Source: Bacteroidales bacterium (GTDB lineage: Bacteria; Bacteroidota; Bacteroidia; Bacteroidales; JAHJDW01). From it: a stretch of DNA of 39,831 nt. Below the pieces are notes generated by a model. The model saw nothing but the letters and a program-made list of their open reading frames with translations, was not told the DNA's origin and ran no database searches. Position 1 is the stretch's first letter. The number at the start of each line of letters is the position of its first letter. Position numbers and translations under genes: made by a program. Where the stretch lies: the NCBI GenBank assembly GCA_029004185.1, contig JAQUPB010000008.1:1-39831 (forward strand), written 5' to 3'. This document shows, one piece after another, positions 3,184 through 29,224 of this stretch.

Positions 3184-4191
3184 ATGAAGATATCGGCTTC
3201 AATATATTCAAACAAGGAAAAAGATTTCACGGAACTTATTAAAGAGCTTGATGCTCACAGGATAGATTATTTTCATATCGACTGCAACGACGAACCCGGA
3301 GTTTTTGAAGATATTGAAAATATCAGAAAAGTCAGCAGTACAAAGATTGATTTGCATCTGATAACGCCGACTCCCGAAAAATATTTAGACCTGATTTCAA
3401 AATACAAAATCGAGAATGTTACTTTTCAATATGAAAACTTAAAAAATAAAATTGACGTTTCTGCTAACGATGGTTCAAAATTCGGATTGGCAATAGTTTC
3501 GGAAACCAACATAAATGTTTTTGATGAATATAAAAATGTTTTTTCCCATATTTTATTTATGTCAACAACTCCGGGAGTTAGCGGCGGTAAGTTCAACAGG
3601 GATAATTTCAGCAAAATAAGAGTATTCAAAAATAATTATCCCGACAAGAAAATTTTTGTTGACGGCGGCGTAAATGAAGAATTGTCGTTTATTTTCAGGA
3701 ACATGGGGGTTTATGCTTCTGTTATCGGCTCGTATCTTTTTAAAAACGATTACATCGGTTCTGCTTTGCTGAACCTCAAAAGCGATAATATCGAATCGCA
3801 TTATCTTGCGGGAGATTTTATGCTCGGACTCGATGAAACTCCTGTTTTAAAAATAAATGAATTCGGTTTTTATGATGTTCTTTTGTCAATTGAAAAATAT
3901 CAGCATGGACTGACAATCGTGGAAAACGGAAAAGGTGAGCTTGAAGGACTGATTACAAATGCAGATGTGAGGAAAGGACTGATAAAAAATTTCAATGACA
4001 TGAATAACATTGATGTAAATACTATTATTAACCTTAATCCGGCGTACATTTGTGAAAACAATACTGTAACGGAAATCCTGAATTATATAAAATCGTTGAA
4101 TTTTCCGATATTATATTTGCCCGTTGTTGATGAAAAGAAGCGGGTAACAGGCATTTTGAAATTTAATAACCTTATTAAAGGCGAGCTATGA
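3184..4191 (+). CDS. Ribulose-phosphate 3-epimerase-like TIM barrel fused to a CBS domain pair
   Basis: 335 residues. Residues 1-~200 match the ribulose-phosphate 3-epimerase family: SASIYS at the N-terminus (family APSILS), metal ligands His31 and Asp33 in HID, His58 in LHLIT, Asp160 in VDGGV, the MSTTPGVSGGKF loop (family MTVNPGFGGQ) and a VIGSYLF phosphate-binding turn. All four expected metal ligands are present. Residues ~210-335 are two CBS motifs. GLITNADVRKGL and LPVVDEKKRVTGI resemble the CBS pair of arabinose-5-phosphate isomerase KdsD (SIS-CBS-CBS), so an epimerase barrel stands where the SIS domain normally is. The stop overlaps the next start (ATGA). Predicted cytosolic pentulose-phosphate epimerase or isomerase feeding the downstream PEP-condensing enzyme. 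An ordinary Rpe lacks CBS domains and is ~220 residues. Family assignment is firm, the reaction is inferred. Confidence 0.8.
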   Translation: MKISASIYSNKEKDFTELIKELDAHRIDYFHIDCNDEPGVFEDIENIRKVSSTKIDLHLITPTPEKYLDLISKYKIENVTFQYENLKNKIDVSANDGSKFGLAIVSETNINVFDEYKNVFSHILFMSTTPGVSGGKFNRDNFSKIRVFKNNYPDKKIFVDGGVNEELSFIFRNMGVYASVIGSYLFKNDYIGSALLNLKSDNIESHYLAGDFMLGLDETPVLKINEFGFYDVLLSIEKYQHGLTIVENGKGELEGLITNADVRKGLIKNFNDMNNIDVNTIINLNPAYICENNTVTEILNYIKSLNFPILYLPVVDEKKRVTGILKFNNLIKGEL

Positions 4192-5186
4192 TTTTACACT
4201 TGAATTTAAATACTGCTTCTGATGTTGTCATGGAAATGGCTTCTTTTTACGAAGCGGTTGCATTGAAAGATGAAAACAACATAATTCTGGTTACTTCGTC
4301 GGATGTTAAAAATGTTAATGAGAAACACAAAAAACTCATAAAAGAAGTTTTTGTTTTTGACAGCGACATACAGCTTGCAAGCAGGAAATACCGCAAAAAT
4401 ACATGGCAGGTAAAAATTGGAAATAAAACAATCGGCGGAAATACAAATAATACCGCAGTAATTATTGGGCCCTGCTCAATAGAATCGGAAAAACAAATTG
4501 AGAAAACCTCCGTGTTGCTGAAGAAACACAATCTTACAATGCTGAGAGCAGGATGTTTCAAACCACGCACATCACCTTATAATTTTCAGGGAATGGGAAT
4601 TGAGGGGTTGAAGATACTTGCAAAAATGAGAGAGAAATATGGTTTCAGCATTTTTAGTGAGGTAAGGGATGCAAGTCATATTGATGATGTTATTGAATAT
4701 GCAGATGTCATTCAGATTGGGGCAAAGTCAATGTACGACCACGGAATTCTGCGAAAATGCGGAAAATCGAAAAAACCGATATTGCTGAAACGTGGATTCG
4801 GCACTACATTACAAGAGTTCGTCCAGGCTTCGGAATTTATTCTTTCCGGTGGCAACAGCAATGTTATCCTTTGCGAAAGAGGAATAAGAACTTTTGAAAC
4901 CAAAACGCGATTTACTTTGGACTTGTGCGGTGTAGCTTATTTAAAGGAAAGCATAAATCTTCCCATAGTTCTCGACCCGAGTCATGCAATGGGATATTCC
5001 TATGGCGTTCCTAATCTTGCAAGAGCATGCATGGCAATGGGTGTTGACGGACTTTTAATCGAGGTTCATCCTAATCCTGCAGAAGCCAGGTCAGATGCGT
5101 CACAGCAGCTGAATAACGAGGAATTTTCGGCTTTGTTTGAAACGCTGAAACCGATTGCGAAAGCTGTAAACAGAAATATTATTTAA
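4188..5186 (+). CDS. DAHP/KDO8P synthase family enzyme (type I-beta DAHP synthase-like)
   Basis: 332 residues. Residues ~88-332 are a PEP-dependent aldolase barrel of the DAHP synthase I-beta/KDO8P synthase group. GPCSIES carries the metal Cys96; KPRTS (125-129) is the DAHP-synthase tetrose-phosphate motif rather than the KDO8P-synthase KANRSS. LLKRG and CERGIRTFE follow; His266, Glu292 and Asp303 complete the metal site. The N-terminal ~85 residues look like a divergent ferredoxin-like domain, as in the Thermotoga enzyme. After the metal His, the usual GGRRDLV loop is replaced by MGYSYGV, and GARNAQN by GAKSMYD, near the active-site face. No chorismate mutase is fused. It starts inside the upstream gene and lies 50 bp before a KdsC-like phosphatase. 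Known family reaction: PEP plus an aldose phosphate to a 3-deoxy-2-ulosonate phosphate. Whether the acceptor is erythrose-4-P (aromatic pathway) or a pentose-P is open. Confidence 0.82.
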   Translation: MILHLNLNTASDVVMEMASFYEAVALKDENNIILVTSSDVKNVNEKHKKLIKEVFVFDSDIQLASRKYRKNTWQVKIGNKTIGGNTNNTAVIIGPCSIESEKQIEKTSVLLKKHNLTMLRAGCFKPRTSPYNFQGMGIEGLKILAKMREKYGFSIFSEVRDASHIDDVIEYADVIQIGAKSMYDHGILRKCGKSKKPILLKRGFGTTLQEFVQASEFILSGGNSNVILCERGIRTFETKTRFTLDLCGVAYLKESINLPIVLDPSHAMGYSYGVPNLARACMAMGVDGLLIEVHPNPAEARSDASQQLNNEEFSALFETLKPIAKAVNRNII

Positions 5187-5236
5187 GGATAATAGTCGTA
5201 AGTCATAAGTAAAAAAATAACTTTAAAATTAAATAT

Positions 5237-5932
5237 ATGTACTTCCCACGAAACATTAAGTATCTGAGAGAAAAATTGAATATCTCTGTTGAATTGATTT
5301 CAAAAAAAATAAATATTCCTTCAGGAAAAATAATTGAATTTGAAAAAGGAGATTCGGAGCCTAAACTGGTTCAATTGCTCACTGTTTCTGAGTTTTTCAA
5401 TTATCCGATAGAAAGATTGATTAAGGAAGACTTAACGAAAACCGAAGAACTGCTTAAAAATTTCAATTTCAAAATGCTTGTTCTCGATGTTGATGGAGTA
5501 CTCACAGATGGAGGAATGTATTATACGCAAGGTTGCGATGAGTTTAAAAGGTACGATACAAAAGACGGGATGGCATTGAAAAAACTAACAAACGCAGGTT
5601 ATAAGGTGGGGTTTATAAGTTCGGGCATAAATGAAGTGATAATACGCAAAAGAGCCGAATGGCTAGGTGTGCAGATGATTTATGTGGGAACATGGGATAA
5701 ACTGGGCGTTGTTGAAAAATGGGGCAAAGAACTTGATATGGGTTTGGAAAGCATGGCATACATCGGCGATGATGTTAATGATCTGGAAATAATGCTGAAA
5801 GTGGGGTTGAGTGCCTGTCCTTCTGATGCTGTGGGAAAAATAAAAGAAATTTCAAAAGTTATCCTCTCTAAAAAAGGCGGCGAAGGCTGTGTGCGCGAGT
5901 TTGTTGATAATTATGTGATGAAGATTGAATGA
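5237..5932 (+). CDS. XRE-type HTH domain fused to KdsC-like HAD phosphatase
   Basis: 231 residues. Residues 1-~65 form an XRE/HTH_3 DNA-binding domain (IKYLREKLNISVELISKKI, then a recognition-helix-like SGKIIEFEKGDSEP). Residues ~78-231 are a HAD-IIIA phosphatase like KDO-8-phosphate phosphatase: DVDGVLTDGG with nucleophile Asp84 and acid Asp86, ISSG around 127-130, and GDDVNDLE with Asp178/Asp179. A standard KdsC is 170-190 residues with no DNA-binding domain. The gene follows the DAHP-synthase-like gene, and the pair matches synthase plus phosphatase logic for making a free ulosonic acid. The HTH may autoregulate the operon or be structural. The KdsC family call is strong; the exact substrate is inferred. 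Confidence 0.82.
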   Translation: MYFPRNIKYLREKLNISVELISKKINIPSGKIIEFEKGDSEPKLVQLLTVSEFFNYPIERLIKEDLTKTEELLKNFNFKMLVLDVDGVLTDGGMYYTQGCDEFKRYDTKDGMALKKLTNAGYKVGFISSGINEVIIRKRAEWLGVQMIYVGTWDKLGVVEKWGKELDMGLESMAYIGDDVNDLEIMLKVGLSACPSDAVGKIKEISKVILSKKGGEGCVREFVDNYVMKIE

Positions 5933-26609: not shown

Positions 26610-26642
26610 ATTTTAATTACAGTGAGAAATAAAGAAAAACAT

Positions 26643-26650
26643 TATATTTG
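26643..26650 (+). promoter_or_regulatory. -7 box for the MazG/helicase operon
   Basis: TATATTTG, exact TAnnTTTG. Start codons before it (GTG 26622) are excluded; ATGs at 26667 or 26688 remain. Confidence 0.5.
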
Positions 26651-26687
26651 TTTGATGCAAAATAAAATGGTTATAAAAACAAATAAC

Positions 26688-27017
26688 ATGAATGATATCA
26701 AAGAAATTATCATGGAATTAATAAAATTCAGGAATGAAAGAAACTGGGAGCAGTTTCACAATCCTAAAGATTTAGCGATTGCGATTTCTATTGAAGCAAA
26801 CGAATTACTGGAATTGTTTTTGTGGAAAAATTCTGATGATGCAAAAATTGATAAAGTGAAAGAAGAACTTGCAGATGTATTTGCATTTGCTTTTCTGATG
26901 GCAGACAAATATAATCTTGATGTAAAACAAATTGTTTTAGAAAAAATAAAACGAAACGGAGAAAAATATCCTGTTGAAAAAGCAAAAGGAACAGCAAAGA
27001 AATATGACGAGTTATGA
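26688..27017 (+). CDS. MazG-like nucleotide pyrophosphohydrolase
   Basis: 109 residues from the ATG at 26688, the normal start for this family (MNDIKEIIMELIKFRNERNW); the ATG at 26667 would add seven residues. All-alpha NTP-PPase (MazG/RS21-C6 type) with metal motifs ExxE at Glu36/Glu39 (EANELLELF) and ExxD at Glu59/Asp62 (EELADVF). The family hydrolyses (d)NTPs to NMP plus pyrophosphate, in housecleaning or in nucleotide depletion. The stop overlaps the start of the helicase fusion (ATGA), so the two products are probably made together. First gene of the island. Confidence 0.88.
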   Translation: MNDIKEIIMELIKFRNERNWEQFHNPKDLAIAISIEANELLELFLWKNSDDAKIDKVKEELADVFAFAFLMADKYNLDVKQIVLEKIKRNGEKYPVEKAKGTAKKYDEL

Positions 27018-29224
27018 GTTTATCTTTTGATTTATCTATTGAGGTTTCAGAACAATATGATTTCAAAAAGGAATCTTTAAACAAGATTGAGCAAAATCCT
27101 TGGGTAAAAAATCAATGGCCTTTAGTATATTTTATCCAAAACAACAATCAAAAAATTGCATATGTTGGAGAATCAACTAATGCCTTAAGTAGAATAAAAA
27201 ACCATCTTGGGAATCCGGAAAGATGTAAATTGAATAAAATTTCAATAATTGGCTCTGATAAGTTTAATAAATCTGCTACTTTAGATATTGAATCTAATTT
27301 AATTCAATATATTACAGCAGAAGGAACTTACAGTCTTCAAAATGGAAATTACGGATTAACAAATCACAACTATTATCAGCAAGATCTCTATAAAAATCTT
27401 TTTAAAGAAGTCTGGAATAAATTAATCGAAAAAAAGATTGTGACAAAATCCCTTGCTGAGATTGAAAATTCAGAATTATTTAAGTTTTCACCATTTAAAT
27501 CACTAAACGAAGACCAGTACAAATCGGTAATTGAAATACTTGAAGGACTAATTACAAAAGAATCAAATAGAATATTTATTAAAGGAAGTGCGGGTACTGG
27601 CAAGACAATACTTGCAACTTATTTGATGAAGTTACTTTATTCAAATGTAACGGATGATTATGAAGGCTACAATGACGATGAATTACGAGAAATTAAATAC
27701 ATAAAAGCATTTAGGGCAAAATACCCAAGTTTAAAAATAGGATTGGTTATAGCAATGACATCATTAAGAGAGTCACTGGAAAATGTTTTTAAAAAGATAC
27801 CCGGGTTAAAAGCTTCAATGATTATAAATCCATCAGATACTTTTAAGATAAAAGAAAAATATGATTTATTAATTGTAGACGAAGCCCATAGATTAAGACA
27901 ATATAAAAATATCAGTTGGATGGGGGCTTTTAGAAAAAATAATCAAAAGTTAAATCTAGATGATAATGGAAATGAATTAGACTGGGTAATAGCTAATAGC
28001 AAAAATCAAATTTTCTTTTATGATTCTGACCAATCAATAAAACCTTCGGATGTGGATAAAAATAATTTTGTAAAATTGTTAGATGACAAAAATACATTGA
28101 ATCTTGAACTAAAGTCTCAAATGAGAGTCCAGGGAGGAGGTAACAACTATATAAAATTTGTTGACGATTTACTTCATAACAAAAGGAATTGTTCTGCTAA
28201 ATACACAACTAATGATTATGATATATATATATTTGATTCATTAAAAGACCTTTATTCGGAGCTTAGAAAAAAGGAAGAACAATTCGGTTTATGTAGATTG
28301 ATTGCAGGTTACTCATGGCCTTGGTTGTCTGATCCCAAAAAGAAACCTAAACCGTTTTCAGATGTTACAGACATTGAAATAGATGGTTTGAAATTTAAAT
28401 GGAATTCAACAGATAAAGATTGGATAAATTCTCCAAACGCATTTAATGAGATTGGCTGCATTCACACAACTCAAGGTTATGATTTAAATTACACGGGAGT
28501 GATTTTTGGCAAGGAAATTAATTACAACGAAGCAAAAAAATGTATTGAAATTGACCCGAATAATTACTATGATATTAACGGTAAAAAGGGTATTTTGGAT
28601 TTAGATGATTTAAAATCATACATAATAAACATATACAAAACTATTATGTATAGGGGAATAAAGGGAACATTTGTTTATGCGTGTAATAAGGAATTAAATG
28701 AATACTTAAAAAAACATATTGACACATTCAAGAATGACATCCCTTTTAGAATATTGCGTTTTGAGGAAGTAAAACCATATATCAATGCTGTTCCGTTAGT
28801 CGATATTTCTGTTGCTGCTGGTAACTTTAGTGATTTGCAAATTCATTCTAATTACGAATGGATAGAACTTCCATTCAATATAACAGCAAAACAAGGTTAT
28901 TTTGTTTGTAAAGTTATTGGGGAATCTATGAATAAAAAAATACCTAATGGTTCATATTGCCTTTTTAAACAAGATGAGGGAGGGAGCAGAAATGGGAAAA
29001 TAGTCTTAGTCCAAAGTACCAGTGTACATGATTCGGAATTTGGTTCAGGATACACAGTGAAAGAATATCATAGTGAAAAGATTTTCAGTGCTGAAGAATG
29101 GAGACACCAATCAATAACATTGAAACCATTATCAAATCATTCTGATTATACTGAAATAAAACTTTCAGATGATGAATTAAATGATTTTAAAGTAGTCGGT
29201 ATATTTGAAACAGTGCTAATATAA
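27014..29224 (+). CDS. GIY-YIG nuclease / DUF2075 (Schlafen-type SF1) helicase / LexA-like S24 peptidase fusion
   Basis: 736 residues, three modules. (1) Residues ~35-120, GIY-YIG-like: VYFIQ (38-42), AYVGES (49-54), Arg60, His64 and candidate catalytic Glu93. (2) Residues ~160-590, DUF2075/SLFN-group-3 P-loop helicase: Walker A GSAGTGKT (191-198), Walker B LLIVDEAHRL (Asp289, Glu290), then QMRVQGGG and IHTTQGYDLNYTGVIFG as later helicase motifs. (3) Residues ~592-736, LexA/UmuD-type S24 protease: PLVDISVAAG with an Ala602-Gly603 cleavage-site pair, GESM with Ser638, and YTVKEY with Lys682. All catalytic residues appear intact. Coupled by a 4-bp overlap to the MazG gene. Nuclease plus helicase plus self-cleaving protease suggests a DNA-damage- or phage-triggered effector; that role is inferred. 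Confidence 0.85.
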   Translation: MSLSFDLSIEVSEQYDFKKESLNKIEQNPWVKNQWPLVYFIQNNNQKIAYVGESTNALSRIKNHLGNPERCKLNKISIIGSDKFNKSATLDIESNLIQYITAEGTYSLQNGNYGLTNHNYYQQDLYKNLFKEVWNKLIEKKIVTKSLAEIENSELFKFSPFKSLNEDQYKSVIEILEGLITKESNRIFIKGSAGTGKTILATYLMKLLYSNVTDDYEGYNDDELREIKYIKAFRAKYPSLKIGLVIAMTSLRESLENVFKKIPGLKASMIINPSDTFKIKEKYDLLIVDEAHRLRQYKNISWMGAFRKNNQKLNLDDNGNELDWVIANSKNQIFFYDSDQSIKPSDVDKNNFVKLLDDKNTLNLELKSQMRVQGGGNNYIKFVDDLLHNKRNCSAKYTTNDYDIYIFDSLKDLYSELRKKEEQFGLCRLIAGYSWPWLSDPKKKPKPFSDVTDIEIDGLKFKWNSTDKDWINSPNAFNEIGCIHTTQGYDLNYTGVIFGKEINYNEAKKCIEIDPNNYYDINGKKGILDLDDLKSYIINIYKTIMYRGIKGTFVYACNKELNEYLKKHIDTFKNDIPFRILRFEEVKPYINAVPLVDISVAAGNFSDLQIHSNYEWIELPFNITAKQGYFVCKVIGESMNKKIPNGSYCLFKQDEGGSRNGKIVLVQSTSVHDSEFGSGYTVKEYHSEKIFSAEEWRHQSITLKPLSNHSDYTEIKLSDDELNDFKVVGIFETVLI

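Follow-up and report, generated by a model that had tools for sequence, protein, structure and literature searches.

A three-gene operon of Bacteroidota and some Gammaproteobacteria as a possible alternative route to KDO

The sugar KDO anchors lipopolysaccharide in the outer membrane of Gram-negative bacteria. It is usually made by KdsD (a SIS-CBS-CBS protein), KdsA and KdsC, and its synthesis is regarded as invariant and close to essential in Gram-negative organisms, with KdsD and KdsA as drug targets. The window, by which we mean the whole 39,831-nt stretch analysed here (Bacteroidales bacterium, assembly GCA_029004185.1, contig JAQUPB010000008.1), contains three consecutive genes that have in common with the canonical KdsD-KdsA-KdsC-KdsB pathway the order of steps, a CBS pair on the first enzyme and a KdsC-type phosphatase. 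KdsB and KdtA/WaaA are kept alongside them, and in Gammaproteobacteria the position at the lpt locus is shared as well. The trio differs from the canonical pathway in having an Rpe-type barrel instead of the SIS fold of KdsD and a DAHPS-type synthase instead of KdsA (Table 1).

Table 1. Coordinates of the trio and of other loci mentioned in the text.
Feature	Location	Strand	Description
Gene 1	window, 3184..4191	+	Rpe-type metal-dependent TIM barrel (residues 1-204) and KdsD-like CBS pair (about 205-335)
Gene 2	window, 4188..5186	+	type I-beta DAHPS-fold synthase with N-terminal regulatory-type domain
Gene 3	window, 5237..5932	+	HTH domain (about 6-63) fused to KdsC-type HAD phosphatase (77-227)
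FSA-CBS	L137:2500-4346		FSA/TalC-type aldolase and KdsD-like CBS pair
FSA-CBS	L138:3005-5579		FSA/TalC-type aldolase and KdsD-like CBS pair
FSA-CBS	L139:3948-6467		FSA/TalC-type aldolase and KdsD-like CBS pair
FSA-CBS	L140:3964-5696		FSA/TalC-type aldolase and KdsD-like CBS pair
FSA-CBS	L141:216-1948		FSA/TalC-type aldolase and KdsD-like CBS pair
Two-gene locus of G071	L187:4904-6581		trio-type synthase and HTH-KdsC-like phosphatase, no Rpe-CBS
Single gene of G086	L186:5331-6431		lone trio-type synthase
MazG-like locus	window, 26622-29224		MazG-like protein, then 736-aa protein

A preliminary description of this DNA had proposed that the three genes form an operon making a 3-deoxy-2-ulosonic acid by a variant route. 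On re-reading, their coordinates and spacing agree, with a 4-bp overlap between genes 1 and 2 and a 50-bp gap between genes 2 and 3. Its assignments were borne out too: gene 1 as an Rpe-type barrel with KdsD-like CBS motifs by Pfam and NCBIfam matches, gene 2 as a DAHPS-type synthase with KPRTS and an altered loop after the metal His by Pfam and residue alignment, and gene 3 as an HTH joined to a KdsC-type HAD by matches to HTH_3/HTH_19 and TIGR01670. That they form an operon is supported by the tight spacing and by the recurrence of gene order and spacing in dozens of genomes at 47–71% identity, which makes the trio more than a chance arrangement. A profile search (151 candidates confirmed) found the Rpe-CBS gene at at least 80 loci of the genome collection. 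Co-occurrence, a question the preliminary description had raised, is found: among the 80 loci listed, the synthase adjoins Rpe-CBS in 79, and in about 68 the next gene in the same orientation encodes a KdsC-type phosphatase, its absence from the others being mostly due to the end of a contig; the 4-bp overlap is kept in 59 of the synthase-bearing loci listed. At L118 the Rpe-CBS gene stands by itself, with the synthase-phosphatase pair elsewhere.

The Bacteroidota hosts include Crocinitomicaceae, Saprospiraceae, Cyclobacteriaceae and others, Brumimicrobium isolates among them, and the gammaproteobacterial hosts are a Thiohalophilus isolate and MAGs of Chromatiales and Ectothiorhodospiraceae. 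Many of the genomes surveyed are MAGs, whose bins may carry wrong labels; two trio loci, L094 and L130, are probably on misbinned Bacteroidota contigs, their MAGs bearing the names Thalassobius and Planktophila. In Gammaproteobacteria the trio lies beside kdsB, kdsC, lptC, lptA, lptB and a CaCA antiporter gene. At L090 the order is CaCA antiporter, Rpe-CBS, synthase, (KdsC'), KdsB, KdsC, LptC, LptA, LptB, and in Thiohalophilus the trio is followed by a heptosyltransferase gene and kdsB. In E. coli this neighbourhood contains kdsD, so that kdsD would be expected where the trio lies. The supposition that the trio serves the surface glycans encoded nearby was not upheld, as KdsB, KdtA/WaaA and the lpt synteny favour a general KDO/lipid A pathway; the glycan genes of the window were also rejected as its purpose because the neighbours vary between loci, except for lineage-specific blocks and KdsB/lpt. 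Elsewhere in the window, a MazG-like gene precedes one for a 736-aa protein whose beginning, judged by eye, resembles GIY-YIG, its middle a P-loop helicase and its end LexA/S24; this is possibly a defence or repair module.

Searches for KdsD, KdsA, KdsB and KdtA/WaaA, whose built-in controls were positive in E. coli, covered 38 whole genomes that carry the trio and found in none of them a KdsD over the cut-off or a KdsA (top match 133 bits, cut-off 314). KdsB was present in 36 of these genomes and a KdtA/WaaA-type N domain in 35. Such an absence of KdsD and KdsA from genomes that retain KdsB matches what a variant 3-deoxy-ulosonate route predicts, so this part of the preliminary description is supported, its substrates being inferred. 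Its question of whether kdsD, kdsA and kdsC are missing is answered with yes for the first two only, since canonical KdsC is retained in most trio genomes, at full score in Gammaproteobacteria. A need for two KdsC phosphatases can be ruled out, as the trio's own is the sole KdsC-type enzyme in 9 of the 38 genomes. Two trio genomes (G047 and G104) lack a KdsB over the cut-off and have a KdtA/WaaA-type match; either their assemblies may be incomplete or another enzyme may carry out the activation.

As a control we used 99 genomes of the window's order, 5 with and 94 without the trio. KdsA was found in 87 of the trio-less genomes (86 over the cut-off and one at 310 bits) versus none of the 5 (Fisher p 1e-5), and KdsD in 82 (52 full-length and 30 SIS-only forms) versus none (Fisher p 9e-5). 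These p-values take no account of phylogeny; the genomes come from different genera. The window genome itself (G000) has a KdsB (246 bits, cut-off 155; 176–181 bits to solved KdsB chains) and a second KdsC besides the trio phosphatase. Its three PF00793 proteins are the trio synthase, an aromatic one adjacent to trp genes and a DAHPS-chorismate mutase adjacent to pheA, and there is therefore no KdsA. The trio synthase is not the only DAHP synthase of its genome, a possibility that the preliminary description had named as counting against its reading, as there are two others.

The barrel of gene 1 (Pfam Ribul_P_3_epim, 8e-23, residues 2-186; CBS, 3e-7, 281-332) has the fold of Rpe (Z 25-26 against Rpe structures for an AlphaFold model of mean pLDDT 90), its phosphate-site glycines and its four metal/acid-base residues. 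The latter, equated through alignment to human Rpe, are H31, D33, H58 and D160, invariant in 67 of 67 Rpe-CBS barrels. Unlike Rpe, the protein carries a C-terminal CBS pair and lacks both Rpe signatures: these patterns, which we take to be those of PROSITE, hit none of the 67 trio barrels, compared with 25 and 22 of 26 canonical loci as positive control. It does not meet the Rpe equivalog TIGR01163 (81, cut-off 212.6), and a separate canonical Rpe is encoded elsewhere in the genome. With the metal and acid-base residues kept and the signatures lost, it is likely, as far as sequence can tell, that Rpe-CBS performs proton transfer of the Rpe type on a changed substrate. A reaction shifted by one carbon would make it a ribose-5-phosphate 2-epimerase yielding arabinose-5-phosphate, which is inferred here.

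For the CBS half, kpsF/KdsD are the top family matches; only this part matches the KdsD model TIGR00393 (33 bits, cut-off 203.7), and the SIS domain of KdsD is not met by gene 1 in the family-model test. Among CBS pairs in the PDB, the top fold match is that of Methylococcus KdsD (4o9k), with that of Klebsiella KdsD (3k2v) second. The 4o9k pair, which was co-crystallised with CMP-Kdo, is also the top PDB sequence match, across the whole pair including the leader. An origin of the pair from IMPDH was considered and rejected: the profile score to IMPDH is lower (hhalign, 80 versus 113 for KdsD), and IMPDH does not match the leader segment DFM....E.PVL that the pair has in common with KdsD. In five relatives lacking KdsD, an FSA-type aldolase is fused with a CBS pair of this type; its gene adjoins kdsA where the contig shows it (directly 3' of canonical kdsA in L137-L139) and is mostly followed by one for a divergent KdsC-like HAD. 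As FSA is reported to make arabinose-5-phosphate from glycolaldehyde and glyceraldehyde-3-phosphate (PMC6298115), the KdsD-type CBS pair appears to mark an enzyme that supplies arabinose-5-phosphate, and FSA-CBS looks like a second alternative supply. It is plausible that arabinose-5-phosphate is the common product of the three unrelated catalytic domains bearing this pair.

The synthase (Pfam DAHP_synth_1, 8e-65) has in common with type I-beta DAHPS of the Thermotoga/Pyrococcus type the fold including the N-terminal domain, KPRTS and the catalytic Cys/Lys/Arg/His/Glu/Asp. Its AlphaFold model (pLDDT 92) matches DAH7PS 4grs, 1vr6 and 1rzm best, over the full length and N-terminal domain, the metal ligands are C96, H266, E292 and D303, and the catalytic residues are invariant across trio synthases. 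It exceeds the cut-offs of DAHPS models (NF006421, 362 versus 335; TIGR01361, 317 versus 268) and not that of the KdsA equivalog (TIGR01362, 116 versus 314), and KANRSS and the extended loop of KdsA are missing. In contrast to the aromatic type I-beta enzymes, the loop after H266 reads HAMGYSYGV (HG.G... in the neighbouring aromatic enzymes), and the trio-invariant K180, Y183, D184, F204, G205, F242, N257, A267 and G273 (Y272 at 97%) differ from the aromatic neighbours, whose own invariants, for example R180, N184, N242 and H257, are replaced by residues invariant in the trio (here K, D, F and N). Y183 corresponds in the alignment to the Arg of the KdsA motif CRQTD, and the aromatic enzymes have Gln or His at this position. 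These changes indicate a substrate pocket distinct from both types; judged from the alignment, the sugar-phosphate pocket of this synthase has been rebuilt and resembles neither that of DAHPS nor that of KdsA. We propose that it is a synthase of the KDO8P type or one for a related ulosonate phosphate.

In a quick tree the trio synthases cluster separately from both KdsA and the aromatic I-beta enzymes; the non-monophyly in this tree is caused by the ARO-labelled L167 and L168, which are trio-type synthases. The gammaproteobacterial synthases are nested among those of Bacteroidota, which suggests, from this quick tree only, that the trio may have been transferred between the two groups. In G071, KdsA and a SIS-only KdsD are present beside the synthase-phosphatase pair, whose synthase has KSRSS instead of KPRTS, and the lone synthase of G086 occurs with canonical KdsA and the FSA-CBS variant. 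Thus, a trio-type synthase can exist without replacing KdsA.

Gene 3 resembles KdsC and KDN-9-phosphate phosphatase in its HAD motifs (D84/D86, S128, K155 and G177-D178-D179, invariant in 25 homologues) and in exceeding the YrbI/KdsC subfamily cut-off of TIGR01670 (126.5 bits versus 107). Its family differs from them in an optional HTH fusion (HTH_3/HTH_19, residues 6-63), which 42 of 68 phosphatases could accommodate by their length (at least 210 aa), and in falling below both equivalog cut-offs (for KdsC NF007019, 113 versus 208). We propose that it is a ulosonate-phosphate phosphatase.

With a probability of roughly 0.6, we favor that the trio stands in, as a non-homologous set of enzymes, for KdsD, KdsA and (optionally at least) KdsC and forms an alternative route to KDO, its substrates and product being inferred. 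The barrel, with its metal site and both acid/base aspartates kept, would make arabinose-5-phosphate by acting either on ribose-5-phosphate as a 2-epimerase (Rpe chemistry, one carbon over) or on ribulose-5-phosphate as an isomerase, and its KdsD-derived CBS pair may sense CMP-Kdo for feedback control. The synthase would join arabinose-5-phosphate and PEP to KDO-8-phosphate, the phosphatase would free KDO, and the retained KdsB and KdtA/WaaA-type transferase would then place it onto lipid A. Observed directly are the conservation of the operon, genomes that keep KdsB and have neither KdsD nor KdsA, the resemblance of the CBS pair to that of KdsD and the altered pocket of the synthase; that KDO is the product has only the indirect support of the retained KdsB and KdtA and the CMP-Kdo type of CBS pair. 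Several observations speak against the KDO route: the synthase has the E4P-type KPRTS, lacks KANRSS and the extended loop and scores above DAHPS cut-offs, canonical KdsC is retained in most trio genomes despite the trio's own phosphatase, trio-type synthases occur beside KdsA in G071 and G086, and many genomes are MAGs.

Because KPRTS is kept and KANRSS missing, a C4 substrate is still possible, and hence these bacteria might make no KDO but a C7 analogue, which KdsB would activate and which would serve as the anchor sugar of lipid A. The barrel would then 2-epimerise erythrose-4-phosphate to D-threose-4-phosphate, the synthase would form 3-deoxy-D-lyxo-heptulosonate-7-phosphate, with the ring configuration of KDO and a side chain one carbon shorter, and the phosphatase would free the heptulosonate for KdsB and KdtA to use instead of KDO. 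The reacting carbon would lie two carbons from the phosphate as for normal Rpe, which fits the retained phosphate-site glycines and metal site, and the trio carries a phosphatase of its own also in genomes that retain KdsC. We nevertheless consider this unlikely, as KdsB belongs to the ordinary family by the scores given above, full-score KdsC persists in Gammaproteobacteria and the nearest CBS pair is one solved with CMP-Kdo. We know of no lipopolysaccharide with such a C7 analogue of KDO.

The synthase and phosphatase could also make KDO while Rpe-CBS is merely a regulated ribulose/xylulose-phosphate epimerase. GlmS/GFAT can show arabinose-5-phosphate isomerase activity (PMC11301363), so arabinose-5-phosphate could have another source; a GlmS-sized SIS protein is present, and the Rpe catalytic ligands are intact. 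The separate canonical Rpe and the loss from every trio barrel of signatures usual in canonical loci make this quite doubtful, and it leaves the KdsD-type CBS pair without a clear purpose. That the synthase is an ordinary DAHPS for aromatics or a secondary metabolite, with the loss of KdsA and KdsD a coincidence or due to MAG incompleteness, would account for its KPRTS and its DAHPS scores. We give this very little credence: KdsD and KdsA are absent from 38 of 38 genomes while KdsB is kept, and we reject an ordinary aromatic enzyme on account of the lpt synteny, the exchange throughout of aromatic-invariant pocket residues and the two further DAHP synthases in G000.

The trio, which dozens of Bacteroidota and a number of Gammaproteobacteria carry, seems to be a second, undescribed form of the core KDO pathway. 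No description of it or of the FSA-CBS variant was found in the open-access literature, subscription papers and preprints being outside our reach, and none of the three prokaryotic D-arabinose routes in a 2024 paper is of the trio type (PMC11301363). If our reading is true, an Rpe-fold enzyme would join the known routes to arabinose-5-phosphate, proteins currently named DAHP synthase by family models would be corrected, and a second set of KDO enzymes would account for the presence of kdsB in genomes without kdsA and kdsD.
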